Positions 3,191 to 24,064 of a stretch of 34,064 bases of DNA are shown here, in pieces (the stretch's first letter is position 1; every line of letters begins with the position of its first letter). This stretch comes from a virus, in the IMG/VR virus record IMGVR_UViG_3300032278_000056, positions 1 through 34,064 of that record; one strand, given 5' to 3'. A program made the translations under genes and the position numbers. The notes under the pieces are model-generated. The model had not been told where the DNA came from, searched no databases, and worked only from the letters and a program-made list of their open reading frames with translations.

Positions 3191-3412
3191 ATGACAGCGG
3201 AAAAATCTATAGCACCCGAACAGCCTACTGAAGTTAAATACATCTCGAAAGAAGCCGAGCCGATCAGGTTTGATGTTTCTTATATCGGTGGTGGCTGGAC
3301 ATGTGATGAGAAACAAAACGATGGTCGATTAATTTGGACCGTCCCATCAGATCAAGCCGTGCACTTCGAGAGACATCACTTCTTTAAGATTGGTCGGATC
3401 GTGAGAAAATAA
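3191..3412 (+). CDS. Small hypothetical head-tail region protein (73 aa)
   Basis: ATG 3191 is chosen over ATG 3185 because GAGGA at 3180-3184 touches the first ATG but is six bases from the second. The product has a disordered N-terminus followed by a compact basic and aromatic region (FDVSYIGGGWTCDE, then HFERHHFFKIGRIVRK) likely to be a small beta fold. It lies between the capsid terminator and the adaptor gene, ending three bases before the adaptor start. Position suggests a head-completion or decoration role, but no family is recognised. Confidence 0.6.
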   Translation: MTAEKSIAPEQPTEVKYISKEAEPIRFDVSYIGGGWTCDEKQNDGRLIWTVPSDQAVHFERHHFFKIGRIVRK

Positions 3413-3415
3413 GTA

Positions 3416-5440: not shown

Positions 5441-7492
5441 ATGGCAAGACTTAGACAACAGTACCCGCAGAACTATGGGTCTACGGGCAATATCAACACC
5501 GAATTTGAGAATATCGTCAGGTATGTAAATGCCGCCGAATTAGGAGATAAGACGGTTGGCGAGCTTCTCGATATATTGTTTACCGAAGCAGGGGTTTTTG
5601 ATGGCCCAATAGAACTAAGGAAAGATTCAAGTGCTGGTATTCAATATAGAGTGGGCACATATTCTGATGCAGAGACAGGCTGGATAAATCTAGTAACTCT
5701 TTCTGAAATTACTGGCGCAGCAGGATCTGTAGTCGGAGAGATCGGTGCTCCTATATTTCATGGGCGAGCCGACTATATTGCGACAGCAAGTCAAACAGCA
5801 TTTGATTATGCCCATGATTCTACCGACACCTTGCTTGTATATGTAGGTGGTGTATTAAAAAGAGAAGGTGCTACTTACGACTACACTACCAGTTCTACAG
5901 GAGGAACCGGCAGCGCCGGAGTTGTTACTTTTAATGCTGGCTTATCTGTAAGTACACTGGTAACTGTTTTCAAAGTAAGAACTACAGCAATAACTGGATA
6001 CACGCGTACAGATTATGTAACTACTGGGGCGCAATCTGTTTTCGCGTTTACCCACGACGAAGATACACAGCTCAATGTATACAAGAATGGCATCCTCCAA
6101 AGAACCGGCGGGTCATACGACTACACCTCTAGCAGCACCTCAAACACTGTCACATTTAATTCTGCTGTAGCTACTGGCAATACAGTAACAATACTGACTG
6201 TAGAGAATGTTGCATCACAGGCTGTAACCGGGATCATGCTGCAGGCTGGTTTTTGTGATACAACTACTGGGTTGGTTGATTTTGGCAAGATCACAATAGA
6301 CAACAATGAGATCCCACAAGGTAAAGTAAATTCTCTAACTACTGATCTTGGATTAAAAGCAAAATTAACAGTCTCTGGAACGACCCCATCTGCTCCATCA
6401 ACTGGAGACTTATGGCACGATTCTTCGACCTCGCCGAATAAACTTAAGTTCTATGATGGGACGCAATGGCTAACTACAAGTCCTGAGTCGTCCTTACCAA
6501 GTTTTTCTGCAACCAACGCATCACAAGCTCTGCACGTAAACGGCACAGGAACTGCTCTTGAATATAAAGCAGTTGATCTTACCAGTGTTGTTGCGGTCTC
6601 AACTAAAGGCGTAGCAAACGGTGTCGCTTCCTTGGATTCAAGTGCACGAATTCCGATTGCTCAGTTACCAGCAGATGTCAGCTCTGAGTCATTTCACGCT
6701 CACCCCAAAGGAACTACAACTGTCAATCAGATGATATTAGAAACAGGTGGCGAAGGATACTCCTCTGCTCCTTCCATAACATTCACTGGTGGTGACGGCT
6801 CTGGTGCAGTTGCAACCACCACTATTAGCGGAAAAGTAGATACTGTAATAGTTAGTGCTGGCGGGTCTGGTTATACCAGCGCACCAACTATTGGATTTAC
6901 TGGCGGCGCTGGTTCTGGTGCTGAAGCAACTGCCTATGTTAATGGCGGAGTAATTATTGGAATAGAAGTCACAAATGGCGGGTCTGGATATACATCCAAA
7001 CCAACTGTAACAATTACTGGCGGCGGCGGATCTGCTGGTGCTGCAATCGTAACAGCAACACTTGGGTTTGTTGATTCAATAACCCTAACTAATGGCGGCG
7101 TTGGATTCACCTCTGCGCCTGTAGTTACTTTCTCCGCGCCTCCAACTGGCGGTACTCTTCCAACAGCCAGAGCACTTATGTTGCATGATCCAACTGCTGC
7201 GAACATTGTAAGGAACGGCAGTTACGATATTAAAACAATCTACAAACAAAAAATAAACTTAGACGCTATACACATCGCACTAACATCTGGCACTTGTGTT
7301 GTCCAGGTTACTGTTGATGGCGCTACCGTTGGAACAACGTACTCTGCTTCTTCTGCGGGTATAACAGCAGCTTTTGCTTCTGCTATAGCAGTTGATTCGA
7401 CATCGTCTGCAAAGAAAATTGGATACGTCATTACAAGCGCATCTAATCCGTCAGACCTAGCAGTCACAATAGCTTCAACTAGACAGAACTAA
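5441..7492 (+). CDS. Tail fibre protein with two repeat families
   Basis: This is a 683-aa fibre likely to bind the host surface. The first 100 residues are the probable virion-attachment region ([13 protein letters not shown], with helices to [13 protein letters not shown]). Residues about 108-263 hold two tandem ~78-residue beta repeats with [13 protein letters not shown] and [13 protein letters not shown] at equivalent positions, a module common in phage fibres. Residues about 434-565 hold four Gly-rich repeats (GG-x-G-Y/F-[TS]-S-x-P pattern). The last ~110 residues ([20 protein letters not shown] onward) are a different beta domain, possibly the receptor-binding tip. The stop overlaps the next start (TAATG). 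No chaperone or autocleavage motif is seen. Confidence 0.85.
5762..6230 (+). repeat. Two tandem ~235-bp fibre repeats
   Basis: Approximate copies lie at 5762-5998 and 5999-6230. Both encode a segment that begins with DY, has an F(D/A)(Y/F)(A/T)HD turn, the LxVYxxG(V/I)L core, a Y-D-Y-T-(T/S)-S-S-(T/S) strand and a VTFN strand before the joining TG. They are alike mainly at protein level. Confidence 0.75.
6746..7150 (+). repeat. Four Gly-rich ~39-residue repeats in the fibre
   Basis: Units begin at 6746, 6860, 6977 and 7094, giving periods of 114, 117 and 117 bases. Each starts GG-x-G-Y/F-[ST]-S-[AK]-P. In the first three units this is followed by a TGG-x-GS(A)GA-type loop and a valine/isoleucine strand; the fourth is shortened after the S-A-P. 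Confidence 0.85.
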
Positions 7493-7974
7493 TGACTGGC
7501 GATATAAAACTCATCGATATGCAGATCGAATTGGCGTGCGGTGATGAGGACGCAATTCAATTTTGTCGGATTATTGGACATATGATGCGTCTTGCCGATG
7601 ATCTTGTTGATGGTGAATCTGAGGATCTCAGTTCATCTATGTCCGAACTGTTATACCGAGTATGCGTAGATCTACAGCTCAATCCGTTTTACTTGAAACA
7701 CAGAGAAGTGCTTACTGCTACAGCAGGGGTAGACATCTTGCTTTGGGATGTCAGTAATCACTGGGCAAAGAGTTCAGTTCCCAAGGAGCAGGTTTTTGGT
7801 TTTGTTTATCGCATGGCTGTGAACACGTTTATTACAGTAGGAATGATCTGCGGAGGGATGAGCCATGCTCGTAATATGATCAAGAGAATTTTTGAATTTA
7901 ATCAGTTCCGAGACAATGAAGAGCAGCTTGAAGATTGGATAAAGGAACACCACGAGCTTAGAAAAGAGGCTTAA
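7492..7974 (+). CDS. Small all-helical hypothetical protein after the fibre
   Basis: This 160-aa product is predicted almost wholly helical from its pattern of hydrophobic and charged residues, with no signal peptide. It includes a negatively charged motif ADDLVDGE (about 36-43), a Trp pair in the middle and a charged C-terminal helix (EEQLEDWIKEHHELRKEA). It overlaps the fibre stop by one base and ends two bases before the next gene, so it belongs to the tail/internal-protein translation unit. Possible roles are a fibre chaperone or a small virion or lysis accessory protein, but nothing in the sequence decides this. Confidence 0.6.
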   Translation: MTGDIKLIDMQIELACGDEDAIQFCRIIGHMMRLADDLVDGESEDLSSSMSELLYRVCVDLQLNPFYLKHREVLTATAGVDILLWDVSNHWAKSSVPKEQVFGFVYRMAVNTFITVGMICGGMSHARNMIKRIFEFNQFRDNEEQLEDWIKEHHELRKEA

Positions 7975-7976
7975 TT

Positions 7977-9794
7977 ATGGGCATGTATGGCGGCAGCAAG
8001 AAAAACGATCCTTGGGATACGCAAGAAGAGAAAAACGCATGGCTTACTGGTACAGGTAGGACGCAGGCAAAGCAATCTCTTTCTGGGGGTATAAGCGATT
8101 GGAATCGAGAAGCGGGTCAATACAATACAATGCTTGGAAATATAAGCGGACAAGCCTCAAGCGCTAAAGATAAATTAGCCGATCTTGATTACACTGCTAA
8201 TTTATCTAATCTTCAAGGATATGGTTCTAATGCACAATCTAGATTAGACAGTCTCAGTGGTTTAACTAGACCTAGTGGGGCAAGGCCACAAAGAAAGAAA
8301 ATAGTTGATACTCCTTGGGGGACTAAACATCAATTTGATTTTACAAGCGACTTTGATCTTACGGACCCCCGTAGTGATTATGGTGCAATCAGTAGAATGG
8401 TCTCAGGAAACTTAGGAAGAGCTACATCTCTTGGTGAAACTCACGAAACAAAGAAAAGCGCATGGCAAAAGTTTAGAGATCAGCAGAATACAGATTTTTC
8501 AAATCTTCAAAAGGCTTATGGAAAATACGACATTTCAGACGCTCTAAAAGGCGGTGGCGTCTATTCATCTTTAGGCGATCTAGGTACTGAAGAAAGTCAA
8601 ACTGCACAATTTGGTAATAATTTATTTATGCCCTCCGATTGGCAAGGCAAGAAAAAAACCGCCTATGCCGGACTAGATAAAAAACTTGACCAGTTAATTG
8701 CTGACCGAGTAACAGAAGAAGGCCGCATAAAAACATGGGGTAGTGATTTAACAGGAAGACTAGAGGGGTATGAAAAATCCCTAGGCGGTTACGACATACG
8801 CAATCTTTCAGAACTTGAAGCTATGGAAGACAGCCTCAAGAAAGAAGAAAGAGATGCTGCAGCCTTTAGTTCGTTACTCCCATTTGATTTCTCAACCCAG
8901 AAACAATTTGGTACTGACATTGGTGCAGATGTAACAAGTCTTTTGCAAGATAGAGAAGATGAACTAGACCGTATTTCAGACGCACAATCAGATTACTACA
9001 ACGAAGCGATGCAAGCAAAACGCGGTGGTCGTTATTTAGATACCCGCAGTTTAGCAGGTATCGAAGAACTTGAAGATGAGTACGGAGACATAAGCGGTGA
9101 TATTTCCGGCTTCAGTTCTTTATTGCCTACAGATTTTTCCAGAGCCTTGGGTGTTCTTGGTGATGTAGACACAAGGACAAAGGCATTACGAACAGATCGC
9201 AAAAGCGAACTTGATGCTTTAATCGCAAAAGCAGGAACTTACTCGGACAAGATCTCTGGAACACCAATATACGAAGAAGATCTATTAGATAGATTGTTAT
9301 CCGAGATAGAAAATAAGAGACGTGGCGCAGCAGAGTACACCGGCGGTCGAGCAGGTGAAGCAACTGGAGCCTTTGATACGCAGTCCGAAGCGGTACAAGG
9401 AAGACTTGGAGACCTGCTATCCAAACGGCGCTCTCTTGAAAGTAGGGCCAAGAGTATGCTCAACCAATCCCGTCTGGGCTACTACAATACTGGCTCTCTT
9501 GATGCCAGTGCTGATGCTCTAGAACGGCTCCGTGGCGACATTGATATGTACGGCGCTGAAGGAGCTTATGATGAACTCGATCTAATTCTGGCACAACTAG
9601 AAAAAGAACGAGGTCGATTAGGATCAGAACGAGACGCTAGAAGCGCAGCTCAAAAAGCATCAGACCGGCGCGTATTACCAAGGTCATTTGGTCTCAAGGG
9701 ACCAATGACTGAGGCAGAATACGCTGCTCTCATCGCGAAAAAACGAGACGACGAACTACCGACATCCGGCAGCGCATTTGGTTCACTCGTTTAA
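7977..9794 (+). CDS. Internal virion-like protein with three tandem 82-residue repeats
   Basis: The 605-aa protein is highly charged and helical, without membrane segments. Residues about 215-465 hold three imperfect repeats whose (F/L)-(M/L)-P-x-D-(W/F) motif places Pro at 219, 302 and 384. Each continues through an (A/Q/T)DR-x-x-E segment to an acidic L-x-x-(I/M)E-x-x-x-D/E helix. The N-terminal part is Gly/Ser-rich (YGGSKKNDPWDTQEEK) and the C-terminus ends in a flexible SGSAFGSLV. It lies first in the block of long structural proteins downstream of the fibre, matching the place of ejected internal proteins in podoviruses. The specific role is unknown. A GAGG within the preceding codons serves as ribosome site. 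Confidence 0.6.
   Translation: MGMYGGSKKNDPWDTQEEKNAWLTGTGRTQAKQSLSGGISDWNREAGQYNTMLGNISGQASSAKDKLADLDYTANLSNLQGYGSNAQSRLDSLSGLTRPSGARPQRKKIVDTPWGTKHQFDFTSDFDLTDPRSDYGAISRMVSGNLGRATSLGETHETKKSAWQKFRDQQNTDFSNLQKAYGKYDISDALKGGGVYSSLGDLGTEESQTAQFGNNLFMPSDWQGKKKTAYAGLDKKLDQLIADRVTEEGRIKTWGSDLTGRLEGYEKSLGGYDIRNLSELEAMEDSLKKEERDAAAFSSLLPFDFSTQKQFGTDIGADVTSLLQDREDELDRISDAQSDYYNEAMQAKRGGRYLDTRSLAGIEELEDEYGDISGDISGFSSLLPTDFSRALGVLGDVDTRTKALRTDRKSELDALIAKAGTYSDKISGTPIYEEDLLDRLLSEIENKRRGAAEYTGGRAGEATGAFDTQSEAVQGRLGDLLSKRRSLESRAKSMLNQSRLGYYNTGSLDASADALERLRGDIDMYGAEGAYDELDLILAQLEKERGRLGSERDARSAAQKASDRRVLPRSFGLKGPMTEAEYAALIAKKRDDELPTSGSAFGSLV
8628..9360 (+). repeat. Three tandem ~247-bp coding repeats
   Basis: Unit landmarks are the P-x-D-[WF] codons: Pro at about 8631, 8880 and 9126, so periods of 249 and 246 bases. 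Similarity is clear in protein (FSSLLPFDFS versus FSSLLPTDFS) but diverged at DNA level, suggesting old duplication. Confidence 0.65.
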
Positions 9795-9816: not shown

Positions 9817-11247
9817 ATGGGCTGGGCATCGATCATCCCCGCAGTCATAAGCGGCATCGGCACATTTGCGTCGATGAAGCAAGCTAATGCTTCTCAAGCA
9901 CAGCTTTACGATCTCATATACAAAAATCGCTCACTAGGCGCAAACGCGCTGACTGGTATGTATGACCAGTTAGAGCTAGACAAATGGTACAAGGCGCAAC
10001 AGATGCAGAACGACGAACTGAATCGTCGTCTATCATTAGAAGAACGCTCGTACGGCAGAGATCAAGACAGGAGATACAGAGATCAAAAAGTAAGAGAACA
10101 AGACTGGATGAAGGGGAGACAAGCGACTCTTGACCAAGTAGCAAAACAAGAGCGAGCCTTCCAGATACAACAGCTTATTCAGAATCAGAATCTTTCTAAG
10201 CAAGAAAGAACATTTGCAATGTCACAACTTCAGCAGCTTAAAAATGAACTGAGTGGTGAGAGAGTTGACGATACGAGACGACTTACTGATTACCATACTA
10301 AACTTGCTCAAGAACGTGGATTCGATGTTAATCAATTAAGGGGCGCTCAAGACATAGCCCGGAAAGAACGAGACCTTGAACTTAAATTACGCGGATCAAT
10401 GCTTGATCGAACTCAAGCGCTTTCGCAAGACATGGAATTAGCCAGACAAGAACTTGGCCCTGCTAAAACAGCACGCTTCTTTGATATGTCTGATGTAGAG
10501 CATGAAGCGCTCAAGCGTAAGGCGGGTTATGATAAATCTCTAGATAGAGCAACAACAAGAATGATGTCTGAGGAAGTTGCTGGGTTAATGAGTCGAGGGC
10601 AATTTGGCGATACCATTGGAAGCGACGAATTCAGGCCGGGATCTGTTGCAGAAGATACTCTGGCAAGAATAACTGCCAAAGCCGCAGGAGAATACGCTTC
10701 AACATACGATAGAGCTTTCGACGAAGCTATGCAGTATATAACTGGCGGTCAAGAGATGTCGCAAAGGACTCTATCCCAAGATATGGCCAAACGTAATCAG
10801 ACTTTGGATGAAGTCGCAAAGACATACTCATCATTACCGTATGAAATCCAAGCTGCTGGTCTCAACACCGGAAGTGCTCTCTACGATAGGGATCTTGTAA
10901 GTGCCGCTCATCGAGGAGAGGTTTCTTCTGCCGCAGGTTATGCACCATACATGAACGTACAGTCCGGTCTATACGATAACATCAACCCCGGAAGAGGCAT
11001 AGGAAGCACACTCAACATTCCGTCAGCGGCTTACGCAGGCAAAGCTCCATCTGCAGTATATAAAACATCCTCGATCAATGCTCCGGGTCCAGCCATCTTT
11101 GGCCAATTGGCATCCAGTTTGTTTAGCGGCGGACTCAGCGCATCCGGTACTCAAGCTACTAACTGGATGAACCTTGCCCAGAAATCTGGCGAAGGCTTCG
11201 GTACAGCGCTTAGTAAGATTGATTGGGATACGTTGTTAGGCGGCTAG
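9817..11247 (+). CDS. Internal virion/ejection protein with N-terminal hydrophobic segment
   Basis: This 476-aa protein starts at ATG 9817 with GAGG at 9804-9807. The first 20 residues (WASIIPAVISGIGTFASM) form a membrane-compatible helix. It is followed by about 180 residues of extreme Arg/Gln/Asp-rich coiled coil (for example YGRDQDRRYRDQK), then a less charged, Gly/Ser/Ala-rich C-terminal third. This layout is like T7 gp14-type ejection proteins, which insert into the outer membrane to begin the DNA channel. It sits second in the internal protein series. The analogy is by order and architecture, not clear homology. Confidence 0.6.
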   Translation: MGWASIIPAVISGIGTFASMKQANASQAQLYDLIYKNRSLGANALTGMYDQLELDKWYKAQQMQNDELNRRLSLEERSYGRDQDRRYRDQKVREQDWMKGRQATLDQVAKQERAFQIQQLIQNQNLSKQERTFAMSQLQQLKNELSGERVDDTRRLTDYHTKLAQERGFDVNQLRGAQDIARKERDLELKLRGSMLDRTQALSQDMELARQELGPAKTARFFDMSDVEHEALKRKAGYDKSLDRATTRMMSEEVAGLMSRGQFGDTIGSDEFRPGSVAEDTLARITAKAAGEYASTYDRAFDEAMQYITGGQEMSQRTLSQDMAKRNQTLDEVAKTYSSLPYEIQAAGLNTGSALYDRDLVSAAHRGEVSSAAGYAPYMNVQSGLYDNINPGRGIGSTLNIPSAAYAGKAPSAVYKTSSINAPGPAIFGQLASSLFSGGLSASGTQATNWMNLAQKSGEGFGTALSKIDWDTLLGG

Positions 11248-11269: not shown

Positions 11270-13537
11270 ATGTGGATACTAGGTGCAGTCGGCAAGGGGT
11301 GGGCAGAAGCGAATGAAAAGAAGCTCGCTGACGCAAAAGGCATTGCCGGTAAATTTGCTACACAGCTAAAACAGAATCCGAATTGGACTGTTGAAGATAT
11401 GAAGCTGGCGCGTAATGCGCTTGCTGGTGGCAACTCCAGTCTTTTAGAACTGCTCCCAAGCGATCAACGTCTTGGTGAAATAGCTACTCGAAATAAAGAA
11501 GAGTACGATTTTAAGAAAACAGGGGACGTAATAAACCGCAGACAAACACTCCAAGAGGAACTCGATAGGCGTTATAACGAGTATATGGATACCAGTTCAA
11601 CTGGCAATCCAGAAAAAGATTACGAAGCATTAGTAGAAATACGAAATTCATACGTAAATGAATCTGGAATAGATCAAGCCAATACTGTATGGAAGGGGCT
11701 AAGATCTCTTGGCTCACCTGCAACCGGAGATGCCGGAACTCTTTTTAGATTCGCCAAAAACATAGGCGAAGAAAAAGTCACGGGGCGTCGAGCAGCAGCA
11801 CGTTCAGAGTGGAGAAATATCCTTGAAGGAATGAAGGACGAGAAAGGCATCGTAGATATAGCTAACTGGGAATCTGCCAGACAAAAATTCAAATCAACTT
11901 GGGGAGAAAGATTAGGCGGGGATAGTGTATGGAATACATTTTTTCAGAGCAGACAACAGTTAGAAAACATCAACAAGCAGATAAAGGAAGACAGAGTAGC
12001 CTCCGACCAAGATAGAGCATACACACTATCAGAAAGAAATCGTAAACAGGCAGAGTTAGAAAATAATACTTGGCTTAAAAATCTACAGACATACAAAGAT
12101 GTAGATACAGCAGCAAAAATCACTGCAGAAATGTTGAACTATGAAGGAGATGCTGCCACTGAATTACAAGCCAGACTAAAACAGCAGAATACAGCACCGA
12201 TACTAAGTGAGATTGCCAACAATGCGCTGACAAAAAATTGGCATACGATTAAAGATATGATCATCAGTGCAAACGGTGAAATAGACGAGAAGATATTAGC
12301 CAATCAACTTGGATTCAAGAATGAAGAGCTTGTGTCTATGGTCAAAAAATTCGCCAAGCAGAGATATGATGACGAGCAATCTGAATCACTATCTGAGCAA
12401 AAGCGTGCTCTGGAAGGTCTGGTAAAAGACTCAACCAGTTGGGCTTATTTCAATAGTGCAACTATCCCGCCGGAAGAAAAACTTGCTGAGTACAAGAGAC
12501 TCGCAGAACTGGCCAATCTTCCTAATGCTTCTGCAATAAAACCATCCGACATGTGGTCACATCTTAATGCAGTTCAGAAAGGCGTCTTTGCAAAGGGCCG
12601 TCAAAGTTACACAACTGACTACACTGGAGAATACAGCACTCAACGAACAGCTATTGAAAAAGAATTAGACTCAGACGAATACAAATCACAAATTACTGCA
12701 CATCTTAGTCTTGACGACGAAGCCTTTGATCAAAGATTCAAGGATGATGAACCATATCGAGCCGCAGTACAGAGAGCAATCCTTCAATTATTTGCTTCTG
12801 GCGGCGTCTACCATTTTGATTTAGCTACTGGAAGTAATCGATATATCCAAGCGTTAGTAGATTATGCTGCGAGTAATAAAGAAGCTATTGTTGGCAAGGG
12901 CGAATCAGTAAATACAATGGCTGTTACAAACCACTTGCAAAGCGCAGCGTCAGGTGTCTTTCAAAACGCAGCGTTAGAAATGCAGCGGGTAACTGGCGCA
13001 GCCCCACCACTACCTAAAACTCAAAGCGCCTATGTATCAAGTGAATCGAATCGAAGAGCTATATCAATTATCGGTCCTGAGTATATAGATTCAGGTACAT
13101 TTGAAGATGACACGGACTTAATGCTTCAGCAAACTAGTAGTGCTGTTCAAGCACTGTCAACAAAAGCAACTAGTCTAGCTAATATGGGAGAAGAATTTAC
13201 AGTAGCTATGGATGCAACGCACCGTAAACCGCTTGCTAGAGAGCTATTAACAACCAGAACTCAACTACAACAACTAGCACAACAAATTCAAACGTATGTT
13301 AGTGCGCCGCATAGATATGGCGGGAAACTTGAAGATGACAGAACCGTTCAATTACGCAAGTATCTAAAAGAAATAAACGAAGGATTGGCAGAGATAGAAA
13401 AAATTGCTGAGATTATTCGAGGCGCTACACCACACGAAGTACAACCGGGTAGCGATTCAACCGTAACTGATCCAGATAATAACAACACAAGAACACGACG
13501 TTACCGCGCACCTACACAAGTTATAACGGGTAGTTAA
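11270..13537 (+). CDS. Internal virion-like protein (755 aa)
   Basis: A long helical, charged protein starting MWILGAVGKGWAEANEKK, with an N-terminal amphipathic helix and no Cys clusters or catalytic motif. The central part has repeated helices of 20-30 residues rich in Gln, Glu, Lys and Ala. The C-terminus is polar and disordered (DPDNNNTRTRRYRAPTQ). Size and position directly before the giant gene resemble T7 gp15-type ejection-tube components. The ribosome site is weak (GAGG at 11252, 14 bases upstream), so translation may depend on coupling with the previous gene, 22 bases away. Confidence 0.6.
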   Translation: MWILGAVGKGWAEANEKKLADAKGIAGKFATQLKQNPNWTVEDMKLARNALAGGNSSLLELLPSDQRLGEIATRNKEEYDFKKTGDVINRRQTLQEELDRRYNEYMDTSSTGNPEKDYEALVEIRNSYVNESGIDQANTVWKGLRSLGSPATGDAGTLFRFAKNIGEEKVTGRRAAARSEWRNILEGMKDEKGIVDIANWESARQKFKSTWGERLGGDSVWNTFFQSRQQLENINKQIKEDRVASDQDRAYTLSERNRKQAELENNTWLKNLQTYKDVDTAAKITAEMLNYEGDAATELQARLKQQNTAPILSEIANNALTKNWHTIKDMIISANGEIDEKILANQLGFKNEELVSMVKKFAKQRYDDEQSESLSEQKRALEGLVKDSTSWAYFNSATIPPEEKLAEYKRLAELANLPNASAIKPSDMWSHLNAVQKGVFAKGRQSYTTDYTGEYSTQRTAIEKELDSDEYKSQITAHLSLDDEAFDQRFKDDEPYRAAVQRAILQLFASGGVYHFDLATGSNRYIQALVDYAASNKEAIVGKGESVNTMAVTNHLQSAASGVFQNAALEMQRVTGAAPPLPKTQSAYVSSESNRRAISIIGPEYIDSGTFEDDTDLMLQQTSSAVQALSTKATSLANMGEEFTVAMDATHRKPLARELLTTRTQLQQLAQQIQTYVSAPHRYGGKLEDDRTVQLRKYLKEINEGLAEIEKIAEIIRGATPHEVQPGSDSTVTDPDNNNTRTRRYRAPTQVITGS

Positions 13538-13543
13538 TATAAT

Positions 13544-16500
13544 ATGAGTGAACTAGACCTTTTACTCCAAGAGTATGATCAAGCAGATCCCAATCGGGAT
13601 AAGTGGGACTATGACATTGAGTCAATAGATCCATCAAAGCTCTTAGCAGACCCCAGATTTCTGGCTGACTTGCGTCGCCTGTATGAAATAGAAGGTGGCA
13701 AGTTTGACTCAGACGAGGACATGGTCAACGACTGGTATCGTGGTCAAGCAGGTGCTGATGTAAACCTTGTGATGGCTGGTCGTCTGGCAGCAGAAACAAT
13801 AGGCGATGATGTAGAAACAAAGCGTATTAAATCTCGTCTGGCGAGAGCACGACAGCACATGCCTAACCCGTGGGAAGAAGGCTCTCCGGGCTGGTGGGAA
13901 TGGTCAAAGGGATACGTCGGTCACGCAGCGTGGGACCCGACTAACTTTATACCAGTTGCTTGGGGTGTAAAAGGGGTTCGTACTGCAGCGCTATTAGGAC
14001 AAGTTACTAAGGGACAAATTGCTAGATCTGCAGTCGGCAAAGAAGTCGCAAAAAAAGCTGCGATAACAGAAGGCACAATCTCTGGCGGTCAAGAAGCTGG
14101 ACTAGAAGCTCTACGCCAACAGAGAGATATAAGTATTGGCCGCCAAGACGGATTTAGTGTTGGAAGATTAGCTGCCCATACAGGTATTGGTTTTGTTGCT
14201 GGATCTGGAATAGGCTATGCGATAGCACAAGGAGCGACTTGGTTCGTTGGAAGACGTGCTCTGATGAACATCGACAAGCTCAAGAAGCTCGGCTGGCACG
14301 AGGAAGACATTGCCAAGCTCGGAGAAAAAGAGTTCAAGCACGCATGGAAAACTGGGCAAACCGCTCCGCATGTCGAGCGAACCCCAGAAGGCGAGACCAT
14401 CGATATATTCCCCGGAGACCCCAGCCATGCTGAAGGTGTCCCAAGTGGCCGAGCACTAAATCCAGACGAGCTTGAGGCGCTAGGCAGAGAGCCACACTAT
14501 GGGCGTACTACAAGCGTAGATGAGAGATTAACGCCGGAGGGGGAACAAGTAGACGTTGCTGTTAATGAAGAACTCCGTCTGGCGGAACAAGCAGAAGTAG
14601 CAAGAGCTGCTGGTGTTGAGGTTCCCGCCCCGGTAGATAACGCAGGGGAAAGAATACTAGCTGATCAACAGCGTCAACTGGAAGAACATCTAGTCTCTCT
14701 TCGAGCCGATAAAGAAGGCAAGCTATCAGATCCAGAAAGCGGTCTTTGGGATCAGATAGAAGCTGCAGCAGTAGAACTAGCTAACGTACGCAAACTGCGA
14801 AACTGGCGAGCAAGGATAGAACGCGAACAAGTTGAGATAGATGAACTTCTCGCATCCAATGATCCGGGGAAAATTGCAACTGGCCGTAGACGAGCAATTG
14901 ATAATGCCAAGACACGCGCAGAATATGACACATTAATTGATCGAGTCATAAGAGATCCGTCTGAGCTTGAGAAACTAGACGCTGAAACAATCTCAGCTCT
15001 AGAAGCCTCTGGAGAACCTTTAGCTACAAGGTCATTCCCAGAAGGGCAAGATCAACCTGATATGGTGCAACCGGGAGATGATGGCGGGACAGTAATAGAT
15101 GCTGGATTCCGAGAAGGCGGTAAGGATCTAGACCCAACAGGCGAAGCCACTGGCGCAGACGCTGCAGCTCGTGATGCCAAAGGCGAAGAAGTACCTGATA
15201 CATCTGGCGAAGCAGCAGACGCGGATACAGGCACAACCGAAACAACTACGCCTGAAACAACCACGACCGAAACTAAGGGCGGTCGCCCACCAATAGTATT
15301 AACTCCAGAACAAAGATCTGCTCTTAGCGATGCTGGTATTTCTAATGCACAGATGGATGGAGACCCAACAACTGGGACCAAAAAAGTAAGGCCGTCTCGT
15401 TTGGCTGCAGTTCTCGCTAATAAAGCAGGCATAGATACAAAGAATGCAGACGGGTCTAAAAAATCCACACAAGAAATACTCAACGAGTGGGATGATTACA
15501 ACACTACAGTAACTGAGGATGCGTCTTCTGTTGCTGCTGGTGATGCCCCAGTTGGTGAAGCTCCAGTAGTACATATTGATGACGAAGTATCTGTAGCACT
15601 AGCAGAACTTAGCGAGATCATAACTGCATCGAACCCAGAGTTATTCCTAGATAAAGGTATTGTCTTTACCCACATAGAAACCAATGGCCGGTCGAAAGAA
15701 GTACAAGACCTGATGAAAGATAAATGGTTGGCTATGATGGATACCGAGCCAACATCTAAAAGCTATCTTGAAGGTTTGAGTGAGGCAGACGCCAAGTGGA
15801 TTGAGCGTGAAGTAAACAAACGCTGGAAAGAGATGGAGAAAAATGCGAGCCAGATGCTTATGGCTCATCCCGCCATGAGAGAGATGTATGGATCTCTTGA
15901 GGGATTCTATGCAAAAGCTCGGCCAAATTTAGAACGACAAGTGCGAGCAGATTTCTTAGAAGGACGCATTGGCCCACGAAAACGACAGACTGGCGCAACA
16001 CAACGAGCAATCGATAAGGTCGAGGGAACGCTTGGCCAAAGAACAGAAGAACAAATTAGTGACGCTGAACGTATCGCTGAAAGTTTCCGCATCGCAAGAG
16101 AAGCCCGTGATAAATCTCAGCTTGCTAGAGCCTTCAAACCAAAAGATATTGACGAAGCCCCCACCACTGGAGAGAGCATAGAAGGGGAGCTACAAGTCAG
16201 GGCGTATGCAGATTTAACCGGCACACAAGCACCAATTAAATATAAAGCACTTGGATCTGAGGAACTAGCAGATACAAAACGAGTTGATGCTGAGAGCGTA
16301 GACGCCAGACGAGAAAGAGAAGATGCTCTGGCTGAAGCAGAAGCCCTAGCGTTTAGCGGTAGAACCAAAGCTCAAAGAGCTGCTGCTGCCAATAAAGCCA
16401 TTGAATTAAAAGAAGAAGGGGAGAGGATCTGGAAGAAAGCATACGCTTCTCGTGGCAAGGAAGTATGGTTTGACCCCGTCACACAGAAGACGTACTCGAA

Positions 16501-19500
16501 TAGAAACAACATTAACGTCGCTCACAAATCAGTAGACGATGTAGATCTCGGCCCTAAAGTAACTGCACAAGAAGCGCACAGTGCTGCTAGAAACAGGCGA
16601 AGAATAGAACTTGCTCAGAAATTAGCTGCTGTCAAACAACGTGGTGCGCGTGGCACAGAAGCAGAAGAGATGGATGGGTGGCAAAGAGAACTAGATCATC
16701 TCGATGCTGAAGTCGGAGCAGAGGTCCGGGCAAGAGCATCTGAAGACTTTGCTGAAGGAGATCAGACAATCTCTGATATTTCCGCAAGAGCAGAGGAATT
16801 AAAGGAACGCAGGCGTGCCCTAGGAGAGCCAGACGATCAGTATTATGACGATCTGGTAGAGGCTGCTGGATCTGGGGCAGCGAAAGAAGAAGATGCGCTA
16901 CTGGCTATGAACAGAGCGCTATATGATTCTGATGGTGCCGAGCACATGATCTCAAGCGATCCAGAAGGGTACGAGTTCACACCCACTGGCCGCAAGAAAG
17001 TAGTAGACGAAGACGGTGATGAAGTCATAAGCGATGCGGTAGCTAGAACGGCAGAAGAGCATACCGATGCAATAAATAAAGCCTTCTCTGAGTTCCAAGA
17101 AACCCAGAACCCACAAGCATTCCAAGATGCCATACGCGCAATTAACGAAGACTTTGCCCTTGATGGCACAGATGCAGCCTTACCAGAACCACCAGTCAAA
17201 GCTGGTGTTAGGGGCCAAGATCGAATAGTTGCGATAGTCAAACGTGATGGTGATCTGAGTGAGAAGAAAAATATCCGTGTCATTTCCCAGAAGCAAATTG
17301 ATCAGGGCAAGGGGCATAGAGATCTACTCGGTAAGTCAAAAGAAGAAGACTGGATAGTTGGTTCTATACCACGAGGCGTTAGCAAATCTGATCCAAGTTT
17401 CTCCGAGAAGTTCGTACCTGATAGACCGGATGATGCTGCTGCCGTAGCAAAAATTCCAGAAGGAACAGCGGGTTCTTCTCATACACCACTGGACGATTTT
17501 AATCGACAGACGTTTGAGCTTGTCATTGGACCTAAAGGCGGCGGCAGAGTATTCACTGGCCCGTTCGCAGATATGTTTGAACAGATTAACTTTGTTAGCA
17601 AACATAAGGCATACGGGGAATTCTTTGACGATGCCGCCTTCAAGGAAGGCAAGCTATCTATTACTGGCAAAAACTTAGACCAGTTAGTAGTAGACCTAGG
17701 GCATGGGTATCCAAATTCCAAGACCGGGGTATTCGCAAACACTGCGGGTGATCATGCTGATCGAATTCAGATGCTTGAAACAATGCTCGAAGTCCGTCGC
17801 CAAGTTGCACCTAACGGCATTAGACGACCAGACGAGGATGTCAAAGTAGTTACTGATAGGTTGGTTACTGAGATATTCTCAGAGGCAGACGAGGCAACTA
17901 AGGGAGTCGCAAGAGATATACTGAATCGAGTATCTCTAGCATACAAACATGCACCGGGTGGAACTGCTAATCGCGCTCCGATTGTTACTGAAGGCGGACG
18001 AGGATTTGAGTTTGGCCACAATACCAACGAGATACATGTTGGTGAGATTGGACAAGGCTTCCAACCCGATGCAAGCAGATTGATCCATGAAGTTGGGCAC
18101 TGGTCATGGGACAACATTCTTACGGACGCAGACAAGATCGAATATCTCCAGATCCTCAGTAAGTATTATGACGAAGCTGGGAACCTTGATCTAACTGCTT
18201 TGAAGGGCAGGACTATAGACGGAGACACCATTAAGTCGAACGCACTTGAGTCCCCCGGAGAATTTTTTGCCAGTCAGTTAGAACGATGGGCAACACAAAA
18301 TGTTTACAGGAATGAGATAGGTGACGATCATTTCTGGAAACGAATGATCAACTATATGAAGGCAGTATTTGATCGCTACATGGATGGCCGTCGAATTGAC
18401 CCGGACATGGAAAGATTGTTCAAGAAAGTTTTACCCGCAAACGAAGCTAGAGCAGCAGCAGAGCGTGGCCCAACAACTAGGGCTGGAACTAAAACTGGCC
18501 AAGCTGTTCTAAATAGAGCATGGGCGCTTGACGATATTATGGACAGGGTCAACGCCACCTTAGTTGGCGAAGACATGCTTGAACAACTTAACTCGCCTGC
18601 AGATCTTATGCACTACTTATGGTCTATTGGTGGTGGGCACATGGGCAAGAACCCATTGAACGCAGTCTCAAAAATAAAAATGGAGATTGTCGGGGCTTCT
18701 CGGAAATTAAAAGAAGCATTGAAGATTCCAGAGGGATTAGACCTTGAGAGATCTAGGGAAGTTATCGCGGACATCGCCCCAGATTCAGCAGAATTTGAGA
18801 GACGGGCTAACCTTGTTAAACGTCTGATGACAGAAGCACCGGAAGGTGAGAGATCTATTAATGAGGTAGTCGAAGACATCAGACGACGTTTGGCTAAGGC
18901 ATTTTACAATGCTGAAGGCGAACATTACCGGCCAGATAATATGCCGGAATCTGTTAAGAAATACGCCTATCGAAATAGCGCTGGAGAATTTCGCGCCCCC
19001 GGAGCTAGTCGCAGTAATAAGGGAAAGATGTATGCAGCCGCCAAGAAGCAGCAGGACAGGCGGAAGGCACGGGTAGAACAAGACCTAGAAAAAATAGCTA
19101 AAGCACAGCGTGTTGAATCACCCGGAGAAGCACCAGCTCCTAATGTCAGTCTTAAAAAACTGTCAGACGAAGACTTGCTTAGACTTTGGGGAGAAAATAA
19201 TACCGGCAAGTACGGTAAACAAATTGCAAACGAATACTCTGCCAGGGTCAAGGCAATGCCATTGCCTGCTAGAGCTGTAGAAGTATCAGACGAAGTATTC
19301 AACACCTCTACGAAGTCATTGCTATCCAATGCTCGCGATTCTTGGCGAGCTGGCGATAAGAAAATGATGGATCAATATCTGTACGAATACAGTCGACGTG
19401 CTTTCAACAAGAACAACCCTGACAAGAAGGTAAATGCTGTTCGGAGCAAAGTTGTTATAGATCTGATCCGAAGAGAAGTTGCTGACACCATTGGCGATGA

Positions 19501-22500
19501 AGCAGATGATGGCATCCCAGCAAATGCTAGGGCTAATGTCAGAGAAATACTATCTCATGTAAGCAACCGTAACCCAGAGCGGCAATTATCAGAGAGACGT
19601 ATGATGTATCGTCTGCTTGCTCTGGCTGGACGAACTCAGCCGGGAGCTGAACATGAGAATCTTGTAACCATTGGAGACATCTATCGTCTGGGGCGTGGTG
19701 ATGCGATAAGCGGGTTCAGGGAAAGTCCAAGACCACACCACCCTGATTCAGTATTCAGCGATTACAATGATCCAGAGTTCAAACATTTAAGACGAACCGT
19801 AAGGGAACTCTCAGAGATGTTAGATAGTGGAGAACCTGACGCAATTCAATCTGGTGTAAGTATGATTATCAGATCTGGCATCTTATCTAAAGATGACATG
19901 TCATCACTAATGCGTGAGTACAAACCATTTGGCAAGGAATTTGATCAGGGTGCCAAGAGAATGTACTACAAGAATGTTGGACGCATTGCAGACCTTAGAT
20001 CGTACCCAGAAGAGCAAGAAGACGCGGCAATTCATTGGCTTGCTTCGGATACTTATGCGCTACTTGATAACAAAGGATCAGAGATTGCTGACCCCGGTTT
20101 AATAAATATACAAGACAGAGTAATAGAAGGACTCGCCTATTTGTTTAATGGTGAATTAAAGAACGCGGCAATGAAAGAACAATTCACCATGTTAGATGCG
20201 TATGGTGACATGTTCATGCCACTCAGAGTAGGCGGACAGCACCCACTACTAGATGTAATTGGTAGGCGTACTGCAATACCATCTGAGTATTCCGTTGATT
20301 ATGTAGGACAGCTTTTAGAGTCCATGCACCCAGATAGATTCGACGCGATGATGTCGTTCATCGGTCGTGGCATAGGAAGATCTAGAGGCGGCGCTCCTTT
20401 AATCCACTGGCACGGCACTGCAAGCGGATCTATAGAGGCAAACCCGGATTTCACAGTACATCTTTCAGCAGCAGATGCACAATACGGCCCCGGCTTTTAT
20501 GTAGCTAGTGGGCCTAATGCTAGAAAAGCTGCCGCTATATATTCCACAGGATCTGCGTCACCGAGAAGCTACGAGTTTAGAATTTCCGATGCGATCAAGC
20601 GGGGAACATTAACAGAAGAGCAAGGCGCTGAACTTCTGGGTGTTTCAATGGATATGCTTGAATCCAGACGGATGATCAAGCTGAACAACACTTGGATAAG
20701 AGAAGTTAAGCGTGGGGAATATTCAGAAGGACATCCTTGGATTGAAACTAGGTTCGAGCCTGCTGATGAAGAAGCTGTGCGTATAGCTCAGTACACATCT
20801 AATATACGAAATGCTAGAGATGTAGAAAGATTTGCAACACAGGTACTACAAGAAAACGGTATCGGTGATGAGCCGCATGTTATCCCTATGGTTATTAGAT
20901 TAAATAACCCAGCAGACTTTAGAACAAATATTTCGTATGACAGCGCGAGTCCACTGATACTGGAGATAAATAAAATAGGCGGAGCATCGGGAGCATTAGA
21001 TAGCCATGCTCTTCGTATGTTGAACTCCCAATTATCAGAACCGAAAGACGGGGTTGCTACATATAAAGCATTAGTCAAGGCATTCGCGGCAAACGAAAAT
21101 TCTTTAGGGACTCCCAACGCTAAACAAAGACTGGCACAGTTCCTAGAAGATGAGATGGATTTTGACGGGATGATGTTTACTCATGGTATCTCAGAAGAAG
21201 ACGGTCTACCAAAACACTTTGATGGGGCATTAGTTTGGAACAAGAATCAAGTAAAGGCAATTACCGCAAAAGAGTTTGACCCATCGTCTGATCACTTTAG
21301 TCAGAGCGTTCTTCGACCACGTGGCGATGTCGTTGATGGCGTATCTCCCAACGGGGTACTGATGTCAGCGCATATTGCTAACGCAAGAGCTGGCAACAAG
21401 GGTGCTAACTTTGCTCCAATGGGCACAGTCCTTGAAGAAGGCGGCGTTCCTCCGCGTACGGTTGATGCAATGCGTAACATGCTCAAGGGTAAGAAGGCTA
21501 CTGATACCGACCTCAGAGAAGTAAGGAAGTTCAGCCCAATGCTCCAGCTAAGAACTAACTCTGCTCGTATGAGAGCATGGGGCGCAGACTGGTTTGCCGA
21601 TTGGGTATCCCCAATAGACGGTCATGGGTTTTACGAGACGCACCACGTATCTTTGGCTGGCAAGATTATGCCGATCATTAAAAGTTTGAATAAGATCTCG
21701 TCTGGCCACGGCTCGAAAGGAGCTATGGCACGATGGATGTCCCGTTCAAATCCGCTATCTAGGAATATGTCTGCAGCAGAAGAGAACATAACTAGAGCAC
21801 TTCGTCGAGCACCGGGAAACTCTTACGAGAAAAAATTATCCGCCGAAGGCCAAGCAACGCTCGCGGATATAAGGGCGATGTTTGCCAATGAGATACGGGA
21901 AATGGAGAAGGCCGGGATCATAACCGGAAAGATAGAAAACTATTTTCCCCAAATTTGGAGTGTTGAGAAGATCCAGGCAAACATGGACTCTTTCAAAACG
22001 AGAATGGCCCAGTATTTTGTGCACGAAGCAAATGATCGTGGGGAGAAGATGGATATGGGCAATGCCGTTATTCGTGCAGACGGCATGATAGAGAACCTTC
22101 TATCAGAAGATGGCATCAATCTACCCCCAGTTGGTGGAGGCAGCAGAGATAAAGTTACTGACCATATTGATTACCAGAGATTGATTCGTCTTGACCAGTA
22201 TCCTGAAATGCTTGAAGCGCTGGAGCCGTTTCTTGAGAGCAACCTGAGAGATGTCCTAGTTAAATACCTTGATGGTACGACATCACGAATGGTGTTCCAC
22301 AACAAATTTGGCGTGAAAAACCACGGGTTCTACGCCTACAAAAAAGTAATTCAGGAAGGGGAGAGCGGTATAGCAGATCTTCTATCGTCTGACTCTATAA
22401 AACTCAGGCCAATCAAGGGAAGGATCGGCGGAGAAGGCGTCATCGAACACGCCAACTTCAAGCACAGAATTATCAAAGCTCCATACTCGTCTGACCGCAG

Positions 22501-24064
22501 ACAAGAAGCAGAAGCTGCAGCAGCAGAAGTTCTGAGACTGTATCGTGATCGCGGGAAACTGGCGGCAAGGAGATACTTAGAAGACCTAGTAGAAGAACCT
22601 AATCCAGAATGGAGCAAACGAGCCGAGGCAATATCTGAAGGGGTACGCATTGTAAACGATGATGCCGTTATACACGCAGGCGAGCTTGATCACATGGAAG
22701 GCACCTTCAATGCTCTCCAAAGAAAGCCAGTTGATGGTGGCAGTCGGTTCTTTGAGTCGCAGCACAAATTCTCTAAAGCCGCCCGTAACTTTACAGCAGT
22801 AACACTACTAGGCTGGACAGCTTTAACATCTACCACTGACCCAGTATTGCCGATGATTAGATCAGGCAGTATGAAGGCATGGTATCGAGGGATAAGGGAC
22901 TGGGCCAAGAATCCAAACTACCGAGACATGATACGAGAGTCTGGTATCGCTATAGAAAACCTCGTGCATGAACGTCTGGTACACCAGTATGGAGTAGACG
23001 GATCTAAATTAGCCACGTCGTTCTTTAATGCTACGATGCTTACCCCGTGGACTCAGATGCAACGTGAGTGGGCTGGTCTGATAGGATTTAACTGGCTGAA
23101 GGCAGAACAAAAGAACTACTGGCAATACGGTAAGGAACACCGCCTAGGTAAAAAAGCATTTAGGATTCTCAAGTCTTACGGCTTGGATCATCTCACCCGT
23201 GACGGCGCGTATCAGCTAGACACGCCTGCAGACATTGGCAAAGATGATGCACTAAAGATGGGCTTGATCAAATTCTCCAACCAGTCTATATACACACCGA
23301 ATCCAAATGACATACCACTATGGGCGCAGACACCAATAGGGGCAATGATGTTCCAGCTCAAGTCGTTCCCCATGATGATGGGTCGCATGGTCGGTGGCCG
23401 CAATGAAACCAGAGGCATCATACAAGAAGCATTTTCTAAAAAAGATGGTGCCCGTAATGTAACTCCGTTACTCTACTTCTTAGCAATAGCTCCGTGGTTT
23501 GGTGCAGGCTCACTGGCTTCAAAGGACTACGCGCAAATGCGTGGCGGCGAAGACCAGAGAAGCTCGGCCCTGAGAGATCGTAGGCTGTCAAAGAACCTCG
23601 AACATCTAGGCGTCGATGACATTACGATAGACGAAATTGCTGACCTCCTTGGATACAACCCCGATCTTCACCCAGACCGAGACGCATGGCTAGGTCATTA
23701 CGTTGAAGGCTTTGGTCATCTTGGGGGTCTATCCCTTGTCGGTGAACTGATGCACAGTGCCGCCGCTAACGCTGATAACGGTGCTTACGGATTGAATCGA
23801 ATGATGTCTATGGTTATGGGGCCGTCATTCGGACATCTGATTGGCTTCGGTACAGCCTTCCAAGGACTACATTCTACGTTAGTTGGTGATGAAACCACCG
23901 GAGAAAGACGCGCTGGAGTTCGGGAAGTAGCCGCTCGCATACCCGTCTTGGGTGGCGTAAGAGCCTTCAGAGAAGGCATAACAGATATGATAGCTGGACA
24001 ACCAACCAAGAAGAGCGGTGGCTCGTCTAGTGGTTGGGGAAGTTCTTGGTCAAATAGCTGGTAA
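13544..24064 (+). CDS. Giant polyvalent virion protein: metallopeptidase and ADP-ribosyltransferase-like domains
   Basis: 3,506 codons without a frame break, nearly a third of the window. In order: an N-terminal conserved region (about 1-240) with a hydrophobic helix near GIGFVAGSGIGYAIAQG; a charged helical stretch; a Thr/Glu-rich linker (about 560-580); more helical linker; then a zinc-peptidase motif HEVGH (1515-1519) with a likely third ligand in GEFFASQ (Glu 1573). An ADP-ribosyltransferase-like segment starts WHGTASGS (His 2290), has YGPGFYVAS (Tyr 2319) and ends near FDGALVWNKNQVKAI (about 2560). The last 900 residues carry ENYFPQIW and two hydrophobic patches, and the protein ends in a Ser/Trp tail (SGWGSSWSNSW). 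Position and size match the largest ejected protein of podoviruses. No RNA-polymerase motifs were seen. Enzymatic activity is inferred from motifs. Confidence 0.8.
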   Translation: MSELDLLLQEYDQADPNRDKWDYDIESIDPSKLLADPRFLADLRRLYEIEGGKFDSDEDMVNDWYRGQAGADVNLVMAGRLAAETIGDDVETKRIKSRLARARQHMPNPWEEGSPGWWEWSKGYVGHAAWDPTNFIPVAWGVKGVRTAALLGQVTKGQIARSAVGKEVAKKAAITEGTISGGQEAGLEALRQQRDISIGRQDGFSVGRLAAHTGIGFVAGSGIGYAIAQGATWFVGRRALMNIDKLKKLGWHEEDIAKLGEKEFKHAWKTGQTAPHVERTPEGETIDIFPGDPSHAEGVPSGRALNPDELEALGREPHYGRTTSVDERLTPEGEQVDVAVNEELRLAEQAEVARAAGVEVPAPVDNAGERILADQQRQLEEHLVSLRADKEGKLSDPESGLWDQIEAAAVELANVRKLRNWRARIEREQVEIDELLASNDPGKIATGRRRAIDNAKTRAEYDTLIDRVIRDPSELEKLDAETISALEASGEPLATRSFPEGQDQPDMVQPGDDGGTVIDAGFREGGKDLDPTGEATGADAAARDAKGEEVPDTSGEAADADTGTTETTTPETTTTETKGGRPPIVLTPEQRSALSDAGISNAQMDGDPTTGTKKVRPSRLAAVLANKAGIDTKNADGSKKSTQEILNEWDDYNTTVTEDASSVAAGDAPVGEAPVVHIDDEVSVALAELSEIITASNPELFLDKGIVFTHIETNGRSKEVQDLMKDKWLAMMDTEPTSKSYLEGLSEADAKWIEREVNKRWKEMEKNASQMLMAHPAMREMYGSLEGFYAKARPNLERQVRADFLEGRIGPRKRQTGATQRAIDKVEGTLGQRTEEQISDAERIAESFRIAREARDKSQLARAFKPKDIDEAPTTGESIEGELQVRAYADLTGTQAPIKYKALGSEELADTKRVDAESVDARREREDALAEAEALAFSGRTKAQRAAAANKAIELKEEGERIWKKAYASRGKEVWFDPVTQKTYSNRNNINVAHKSVDDVDLGPKVTAQEAHSAARNRRRIELAQKLAAVKQRGARGTEAEEMDGWQRELDHLDAEVGAEVRARASEDFAEGDQTISDISARAEELKERRRALGEPDDQYYDDLVEAAGSGAAKEEDALLAMNRALYDSDGAEHMISSDPEGYEFTPTGRKKVVDEDGDEVISDAVARTAEEHTDAINKAFSEFQETQNPQAFQDAIRAINEDFALDGTDAALPEPPVKAGVRGQDRIVAIVKRDGDLSEKKNIRVISQKQIDQGKGHRDLLGKSKEEDWIVGSIPRGVSKSDPSFSEKFVPDRPDDAAAVAKIPEGTAGSSHTPLDDFNRQTFELVIGPKGGGRVFTGPFADMFEQINFVSKHKAYGEFFDDAAFKEGKLSITGKNLDQLVVDLGHGYPNSKTGVFANTAGDHADRIQMLETMLEVRRQVAPNGIRRPDEDVKVVTDRLVTEIFSEADEATKGVARDILNRVSLAYKHAPGGTANRAPIVTEGGRGFEFGHNTNEIHVGEIGQGFQPDASRLIHEVGHWSWDNILTDADKIEYLQILSKYYDEAGNLDLTALKGRTIDGDTIKSNALESPGEFFASQLERWATQNVYRNEIGDDHFWKRMINYMKAVFDRYMDGRRIDPDMERLFKKVLPANEARAAAERGPTTRAGTKTGQAVLNRAWALDDIMDRVNATLVGEDMLEQLNSPADLMHYLWSIGGGHMGKNPLNAVSKIKMEIVGASRKLKEALKIPEGLDLERSREVIADIAPDSAEFERRANLVKRLMTEAPEGERSINEVVEDIRRRLAKAFYNAEGEHYRPDNMPESVKKYAYRNSAGEFRAPGASRSNKGKMYAAAKKQQDRRKARVEQDLEKIAKAQRVESPGEAPAPNVSLKKLSDEDLLRLWGENNTGKYGKQIANEYSARVKAMPLPARAVEVSDEVFNTSTKSLLSNARDSWRAGDKKMMDQYLYEYSRRAFNKNNPDKKVNAVRSKVVIDLIRREVADTIGDEADDGIPANARANVREILSHVSNRNPERQLSERRMMYRLLALAGRTQPGAEHENLVTIGDIYRLGRGDAISGFRESPRPHHPDSVFSDYNDPEFKHLRRTVRELSEMLDSGEPDAIQSGVSMIIRSGILSKDDMSSLMREYKPFGKEFDQGAKRMYYKNVGRIADLRSYPEEQEDAAIHWLASDTYALLDNKGSEIADPGLINIQDRVIEGLAYLFNGELKNAAMKEQFTMLDAYGDMFMPLRVGGQHPLLDVIGRRTAIPSEYSVDYVGQLLESMHPDRFDAMMSFIGRGIGRSRGGAPLIHWHGTASGSIEANPDFTVHLSAADAQYGPGFYVASGPNARKAAAIYSTGSASPRSYEFRISDAIKRGTLTEEQGAELLGVSMDMLESRRMIKLNNTWIREVKRGEYSEGHPWIETRFEPADEEAVRIAQYTSNIRNARDVERFATQVLQENGIGDEPHVIPMVIRLNNPADFRTNISYDSASPLILEINKIGGASGALDSHALRMLNSQLSEPKDGVATYKALVKAFAANENSLGTPNAKQRLAQFLEDEMDFDGMMFTHGISEEDGLPKHFDGALVWNKNQVKAITAKEFDPSSDHFSQSVLRPRGDVVDGVSPNGVLMSAHIANARAGNKGANFAPMGTVLEEGGVPPRTVDAMRNMLKGKKATDTDLREVRKFSPMLQLRTNSARMRAWGADWFADWVSPIDGHGFYETHHVSLAGKIMPIIKSLNKISSGHGSKGAMARWMSRSNPLSRNMSAAEENITRALRRAPGNSYEKKLSAEGQATLADIRAMFANEIREMEKAGIITGKIENYFPQIWSVEKIQANMDSFKTRMAQYFVHEANDRGEKMDMGNAVIRADGMIENLLSEDGINLPPVGGGSRDKVTDHIDYQRLIRLDQYPEMLEALEPFLESNLRDVLVKYLDGTTSRMVFHNKFGVKNHGFYAYKKVIQEGESGIADLLSSDSIKLRPIKGRIGGEGVIEHANFKHRIIKAPYSSDRRQEAEAAAAEVLRLYRDRGKLAARRYLEDLVEEPNPEWSKRAEAISEGVRIVNDDAVIHAGELDHMEGTFNALQRKPVDGGSRFFESQHKFSKAARNFTAVTLLGWTALTSTTDPVLPMIRSGSMKAWYRGIRDWAKNPNYRDMIRESGIAIENLVHERLVHQYGVDGSKLATSFFNATMLTPWTQMQREWAGLIGFNWLKAEQKNYWQYGKEHRLGKKAFRILKSYGLDHLTRDGAYQLDTPADIGKDDALKMGLIKFSNQSIYTPNPNDIPLWAQTPIGAMMFQLKSFPMMMGRMVGGRNETRGIIQEAFSKKDGARNVTPLLYFLAIAPWFGAGSLASKDYAQMRGGEDQRSSALRDRRLSKNLEHLGVDDITIDEIADLLGYNPDLHPDRDAWLGHYVEGFGHLGGLSLVGELMHSAAANADNGAYGLNRMMSMVMGPSFGHLIGFGTAFQGLHSTLVGDETTGERRAGVREVAARIPVLGGVRAFREGITDMIAGQPTKKSGGSSSGWGSSWSNSW

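Follow-up and report, generated by a model that had tools for sequence, protein, structure and literature searches.

A giant phage protein with predicted zincin and ADP-ribosyltransferase domains between ends resembling the T7 gp16 ejection protein

The giant protein encoded in the window, by which we mean the whole 34,064-nucleotide stretch of viral DNA analysed here, is probably a gp16-type ejection protein in which a T7-like scaffold is interrupted by a zincin and ADP-ribosyltransferase (ART) payload that would be delivered into the host. Computation shows the arrangement of its domains, homology, the conservation of catalytic residues, ends like those of gp16 and a complete absence of cysteine in the protein (Table 1).

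Table 1. Positions in the window of the giant protein, its domains and residues, and the proteins encoded upstream of it
Feature	Coordinates	Strand	Remarks
605-aa protein, possible member of the ejected set	7977..9794	+	0 Cys
476-aa protein, candidate co-ejected	9817..11247	+	0 Cys; weak match to phrog_805 (internal virion protein) in 2 of 11 relatives
755-aa protein, candidate co-ejected	11270..13537	+	0 Cys; gp15-like position
Giant ejection-type protein	13544..24064	+	3,506 aa, ATG to stop; 0 Cys
N-terminal scaffold domain	13544..14323	+	Residues 1-260; hydrophobic stretches rich in glycine around 136 and 209
Zincin-like metallopeptidase domain	17891..18463	+	Residues 1450-1640
HEVGH zinc-binding helix motif	18086..18100	+	Residues 1515-1519
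GEFFASQ, with E1573 as probable third zinc ligand	18257..18277	+	Lost with HExxH in five relatives
ADP-ribosyltransferase domain, ART-PolyVal type, with helical insert	20243..21265	+	Residues about 2234-2574
ART His H2290, strand 1	20411..20413	+	Conserved in 41/47 relatives
ART Tyr Y2319 of GPGFY, strand 2	20498..20500	+	Conserved in 44/48 relatives
ART Asp D2541 of FDG, strand 5	21164..21166	+	Conserved in 48/49 relatives
C-terminal T7-gp16-C-like ejection module	21341..24061	+	Residues 2600-3506, all-helical; hydrophobic stretches 3265-3475

An intact reading frame in a CRP-810-type phage

An earlier note on this DNA had described one unbroken frame with conserved-looking ends, and both features hold. 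The protein is encoded by a single ORF, and its C-terminal 860 residues show the strongest conservation in the family, with a mean column identity of 41% in the family alignments, compared with 29% in the ART and 25% in the zincin region. An assembly artefact can be dismissed as the origin of the frame: independent contigs carry a single 3,450-residue homologue that is 59% identical over the whole length, and 35 non-redundant relatives possess single ORFs of more than 3,000 residues.

The window, a 34-kb virus record, encodes an SU10-type capsid protein and has a replication block comprising Prim-Pol, Sak4-like and Cas4-like genes. Its gene order is that of Roseobacter phage CRP-810, the type member of a marine phage family with a global distribution (PMC11288001), and it shares the CRP-810-type core order of capsid, Prim-Pol, AAA ATPase, PD-(D/E)XK nuclease and internal virion protein D; portal and TerL are not on the window. 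The phage is a marine one of the CRP-810 type and probably short-tailed. Positions 7492-7974, among the structural genes, encode a 160-residue protein (phrog_21390) whose CRP-810 counterpart is annotated as a GNAT acetyltransferase, possibly another virion-linked modifier.

Two alignment-driven scans of IMG/VR yielded more than 100 loci, which were reduced to 51 non-redundant proteins. A common layout of N-terminal domain, zincin, ART and C-terminal domain is found in some 50 relatives and in the isolate CRP-810, and the usual form in the family is a single ORF of 2,900-3,900 residues. CRP-810 itself encodes the protein as three genes, the payload being a separate gene, gp35; the N-terminal piece, gp36, is annotated as 'internal virion protein D' and the remaining pieces as 'hypothetical protein'. 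The published account of this phage family names only gp36 and makes no mention of ADP-ribosylation (PMC11288001). The giant protein is also in pieces in L064 and L112, so that, with CRP-810, a single chain is evidently not needed. The breaks fall between the domains of the giant gene in L002 (16412-26052), L064 (2649-12505) and L112; those in CRP-810 and some contigs may be real splits, or may reflect frameshifted expression or sequence errors.

Terminal regions related to T7 gp16

T7 gp16 spans the phrog_342 profile ('internal virion protein with endolysin domain') from position 4 to 1228. This profile matches the C-terminus in 15 of 51 relatives (up to 2.2e-22) and the N-terminus in 10 of 34, the N-terminal match being seen in relatives and not in the window protein; a virion structural family matches the C-terminus in 49 of the 51. 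Taken in order, the family matches to phrog_342 cover profile positions 321-419, from the N-terminal domain of a relative, and 517-1209, from the C-terminal domain, with the payload lying between them. The window itself has matches at 21728-22021 (profile 529-644, E 2e-5) and 23270-23380 (profile 1032-1069, E 5e-5), in a search that also detected its controls.

For an AlphaFold model of the C-terminal 907 residues (pTM 0.75), the four best structures are all of the gp16 type, namely 8vb2 (Z 10.2), 9jyy (Z 9.3), 9vvp (Z 8.6) and 7eyb (Z 8.6), the core proteins of PhiM1, T7, E1004 and T7 again; the next row falls to Z 6.2, and values of 8.6-10.2 are modest for a mostly helical model. A BFVD search with the same model lists many internal virion proteins. 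The informative structure comparisons for this and the 1,191-residue payload model described below were those made with VIA-align 2, Foldseek against the PDB returning nothing significant for either because long helices fill its lists. Alignment by hhalign with T7 gp16 alone was weak for the C-terminus (score 40, probability 21%) and not significant for the N-terminus.

Of the 280 strongest hydrophobic windows across the family, 190 lie in the first 300 or the last 320 residues, for which length alone predicts about 53; those of T7 gp16 likewise lie in its two membrane regions. The window protein ends in a Trp-rich tail (24032-24061, GWGSSWSNSW) with a W-x3-W-x3-W pattern that is conserved in the family. 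T7 gp16 too has an essential C-terminal tail, although a charged rather than a Trp-rich one.

No N-terminal lytic transglycosylase was matched in the window protein; on contigs L124 and L116, part of the phrog_342 profile (13-185 and 37-154) is found in another ORF. Because P22-type gp16 homologues also occur without a lytic transglycosylase (PMC8954989), this domain does not define the family. As judged from sequence and model, a payload of about 2,300 residues is inserted between TMH I-like and gp16-C-like parts.

The ADP-ribosyltransferase domain

The ADP-ribosyltransferase proposed in the earlier note is well supported. Relatives match PF18760, the His, Tyr and Asp positions are conserved, the model is PARP-like, and the ART is of the HYD type. 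The WHGTASGS and YGPGFYVAS motifs that the note had picked out are present at residues 2289-2296 and 2314-2322; DFDGMM occupies residues 2539-2544 and FDGALVWNKNQVKAI residues 2559-2573. D2541, the Asp of an '(F/Y)DG' motif, is the invariant acidic residue of the ART. The Asp of FDGALVW was rejected for this role, as it varies among relatives (K, T, E, D). The same three residues, His, Tyr and Asp, have been described as making up the active site of polyvalent ARTs (PMC5512222). The His is missing in 7-8 of 50 relatives; in the tree these losses fall on a number of scattered branches, some of which are long and weakly placed, and may represent more than one event.

PF18760 (ART-PolyVal / Tox-ART-HYD2) matches 32 of 50 aligned homologues, with a best value of 3.2e-11. 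CRP-810 matches it in two pieces of 18.8 and 13.1 bits, below the cut-off, and the window protein gives no match at the curated cut-off. Thus, a profile search with ART-PolyVal, as the note had proposed, succeeds with the relatives and fails with the window protein itself, whose copy is too diverged for Pfam; since only relatives match, the window ART is assigned to ART-PolyVal by homology and not by its own score.

An AlphaFold model of residues 1420-2610 (1,191 residues, mean pLDDT 78, pTM 0.41) covers both enzymes. Model positions 814-1155, corresponding to about residues 2234-2574, match the catalytic domains of PARP1 (Z 6.3) and PARP2 (Z 5.8), which are modest values in the right place, and the His and Tyr are placed on modelled strands 869-873 and 899-903.

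The zincin-like metallopeptidase domain

HEVGH was found at exactly the residues reported earlier, with GEFFASQ downstream (residues 1572-1578). The zinc metallopeptidase proposed on that basis is supported as a gluzincin-like zincin by the conservation of HExxH and the downstream Glu, and by the predicted helices. About 40 of 45 relatives retain HExxH together with a Glu 58 residues past its first His. Indeed, conservation in alignments of 45-50 diverse relatives takes the motifs far beyond chance. In the model, three strands are followed by HEVGH on helix 90-105 and by E1573 of GEFFA on a later helix, 152-168. Structure prediction, suggested beforehand for both enzyme regions, thus gave PARP matches for one and this order of strands and helices for the other; no zincin appears among the structure matches of the 1420-2610 model, a comparison that barely covers the zincin part.

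A few relatives match metallopeptidase families (DUF6782 at 1.2e-5; Peptidase_M91), and MPTase-PolyVal (PF18818) gives a weak match in two of 45 homologues and none in the window protein. The N4 and RPP1 proteins are likewise without a PF18818 match, which argues that this profile misses the branch. Given the weak support from the libraries, we regard the zincin assignment as good but less firm than that of the ART.

All three zinc ligands have been lost together in L051, L079, L081, L082 and L087. These five phages form one clade in the tree, so a single loss event would account for them. The zincin region of this clade has a dN/dS of about 0.12, which is not raised, dS being mostly saturated; relaxed selection was considered and rejected, as it is not seen. 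The zincin-dead domain is possibly a conserved pseudo-enzyme. Since five relatives are zincin-dead and 7-8 lack the ART His, there must be hosts in which one or the other activity is dispensable. Mutually exclusive loss of the two active sites is not claimed, the counts being too small. In L124, the giant protein has two zincin-like matches (residues 1375-1522 and 2306-2437), which suggests a duplicated zincin domain.

Cysteine depletion and a precedent inside an ejectosome

Judged by the rest of the window, about 20.6 cysteines would be expected in the 3,506 residues of the window protein, which contains none (P about 1e-9). Across the family, 10 cysteines occur in 149,478 residues (0.067 per 1000), against 4.7 per 1000 in the remaining ORFs of these loci, a difference of about 70-fold. 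T7 gp15 and gp16 and N4 gp50, gp51 and gp52 are also Cys-free; the absence of cysteine has been noted for N4-like vRNAPs, where it was linked to injection and passage through the tail and periplasm (PMC3715699, PMC3915230). Of the proteins encoded upstream, those of 476 and 755 residues are Cys-free across the family as well, with one cysteine in 30 proteins, and on composition the upstream Cys-free proteins are a candidate co-ejected set.

The best structural match of the payload model is 9k3a_B (Z 9.0), from the pre-ejectosome of cyanophage A4. This chain is gp27 of Anabaena phage A-4L (L129, 20116-25269), annotated only as 'tail protein', which has an ART-like region with YHGT at 1425. Aligned by hhalign with the family ART profile, gp27 scores 49.7 as against 23.2 for the best unrelated ORF; its value against PF18760 is 0.0035. 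Since 9k3a_B is A-4L gp27 and its ART aligns with that of the family, a homologous ART-bearing protein has already been seen inside a virion ejection complex. Thus, gp27 shares with the window protein the character of an ejectosome protein with a homologous ART region, here resolved in the virion, but at 1,717 residues it is without HExxH and is unmatched by the C-terminal scaffold profile of the family. The earlier note's proposal that this is a polyvalent virion protein that is ejected would therefore stand, given the gp16-type ends, the ejectosome structures of gp16, the ART protein of the A4 pre-ejectosome and the absence of cysteine. The note went on to suggest that the protein disarms host proteins as a candidate anti-defence or take-over effector, a role that it may have.

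Discussion

From these features we infer packaging, ejection, topology, activity and host targets as follows. The protein would be stored in the head, as part of the core, with two or three of the upstream Cys-free proteins. At infection it would thread out as unfolded beads, and both scaffold ends would insert in the inner membrane by analogy with T7 gp16. A published model places what follows TMH I of ejected T7 gp16 in the cytoplasm (PMC8954989); because this stretch, up to gp16-C, lies there, the payload may be expected to refold on the cytoplasmic side, where the ART would modify and the zincin would cut host proteins during DNA entry. Entry of both enzymes into the bacterium would then precede or accompany that of the viral DNA. 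The annotation of CRP-810 includes no RNA polymerase gene, which makes it plausible that ADP-ribosylation alters host transcription early in infection, as T4 Alt does.

It is unlikely, in our judgement, that the zincin instead processes its own chain into scaffold, ART and C-terminal pieces, in the head or after ejection, leaving the ART as the sole effector. Self-processing has been proposed for the MPTase domains of polyvalent proteins (PMC5512222), and the modules are clearly separable, having their own genes in CRP-810 and L064. However, the zincin-dead clade kept a single long ORF after losing its three ligands, so that self-cutting is not required for assembly, and the phages in which the modules are already separate (CRP-810, L064 and L112) keep an intact HExxH; both points make self-processing less likely as the main task of the zincin.

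Improbable, too, is a mainly structural or degenerate role, in which the inserted domains pack the core stack or bind to host factors but catalyse nothing. Catalytic residues are indeed missing in 5 of 45 relatives for the zincin and 7-8 of 50 for the ART, and the zincin region of the dead clade is still under constraint; yet most lineages retain them at distances that leave the remainder of each domain at only 20-30% identity, and the three zinc ligands decayed as a set. More improbable still is that the enzymes act in the periplasm or the envelope, perhaps on envelope proteins while the channel is being formed. The N-terminal domain does precede the payload, and the topology is taken from T7 gp16, but the payload occupies the interval that is cytoplasmic in gp16 and the NAD+ required by an ART is a cytoplasmic metabolite.

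If delivery by a gp16-type carrier is right, two enzymes act in the first seconds of infection, before any phage gene expression. The reading would also account for 'hypothetical proteins' that are conserved throughout this worldwide family of marine phages, their carrier being a T7-type ejection protein. ARTs were found in about 3% of podoviruses in a survey (PMC9503650), whereas nearly every member of this family carries one in its ejection gene. It is tempting to generalize further, with the gp16 slot of short-tailed phage ejectosomes as a general cargo site, the enzymes of this family being placed after the first segment in the inner membrane and before the cytoplasmic ring, the channel doubling as an effector-delivery device and each enzyme being separately switched off by lineage; we would give this wider view slightly less than an even chance. 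Naturally zincin-dead and ART-dead relatives provide ready controls, and the absence of cysteine offers a cheap marker for other ejected proteins.

Comparison with known systems

Polyvalent injected proteins with MPTase and ART domains (PMC5512222) and the vRNAP of N4 are already known. What is new, as far as the literature compared here shows, is the gp16-type carrier with enzymes at the membrane-to-cytoplasm junction and its occurrence throughout a family, together with the finding that each active site has been lost separately, and the application of the cysteine marker to the family. The window protein itself found no match in Pfam or among PDB sequences, profiles built from the alignments of the zincin, ART, middle and C-terminal regions gave chance matches only in the PDB, and LPD38 (PF18857) was unmatched, as it was in the controls.

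The core proteins of T7 (gp16), PhiM1 and E1004 share the gene position of the window protein, last in the structural run after Cys-free proteins. Compared with T7 gp16, the window protein is 2.7 times longer and has the zincin and ART insert, and no transglycosylase was found in it. The vRNAPs of N4 (gp50) and RPP1 (Schitoviridae) are likewise Cys-free giants of 3,500-3,760 residues and third ejection proteins, N4 having an HExxH domain and RPP1 HExxH motifs and an ART. No RNA polymerase module was detected by Pfam or PHROG polymerase matches to the whole window protein, and hhalign of the zincin and ART profiles against the RPP1 vRNAP gave nothing significant, the profile comparisons covering the window protein outside residues 300-1400; from these alignments, the domain sets of the two proteins look independently assembled, or too diverged.

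T4 Alt is also a head-packaged, injected ART, but it is not part of the ejection channel, and its ART clade is R-S-E, not H-Y-D (PMC5512222). With the polyvalent proteins bearing ART-PolyVal and MPTase domains (Iyer et al. 2017), the window protein shares an ART of that family, a zincin and a predicted route by injection. It differs from them in that the Pfam models miss the window copy, and in possessing a gp16-type carrier and a layout that is kept vertically throughout the family.
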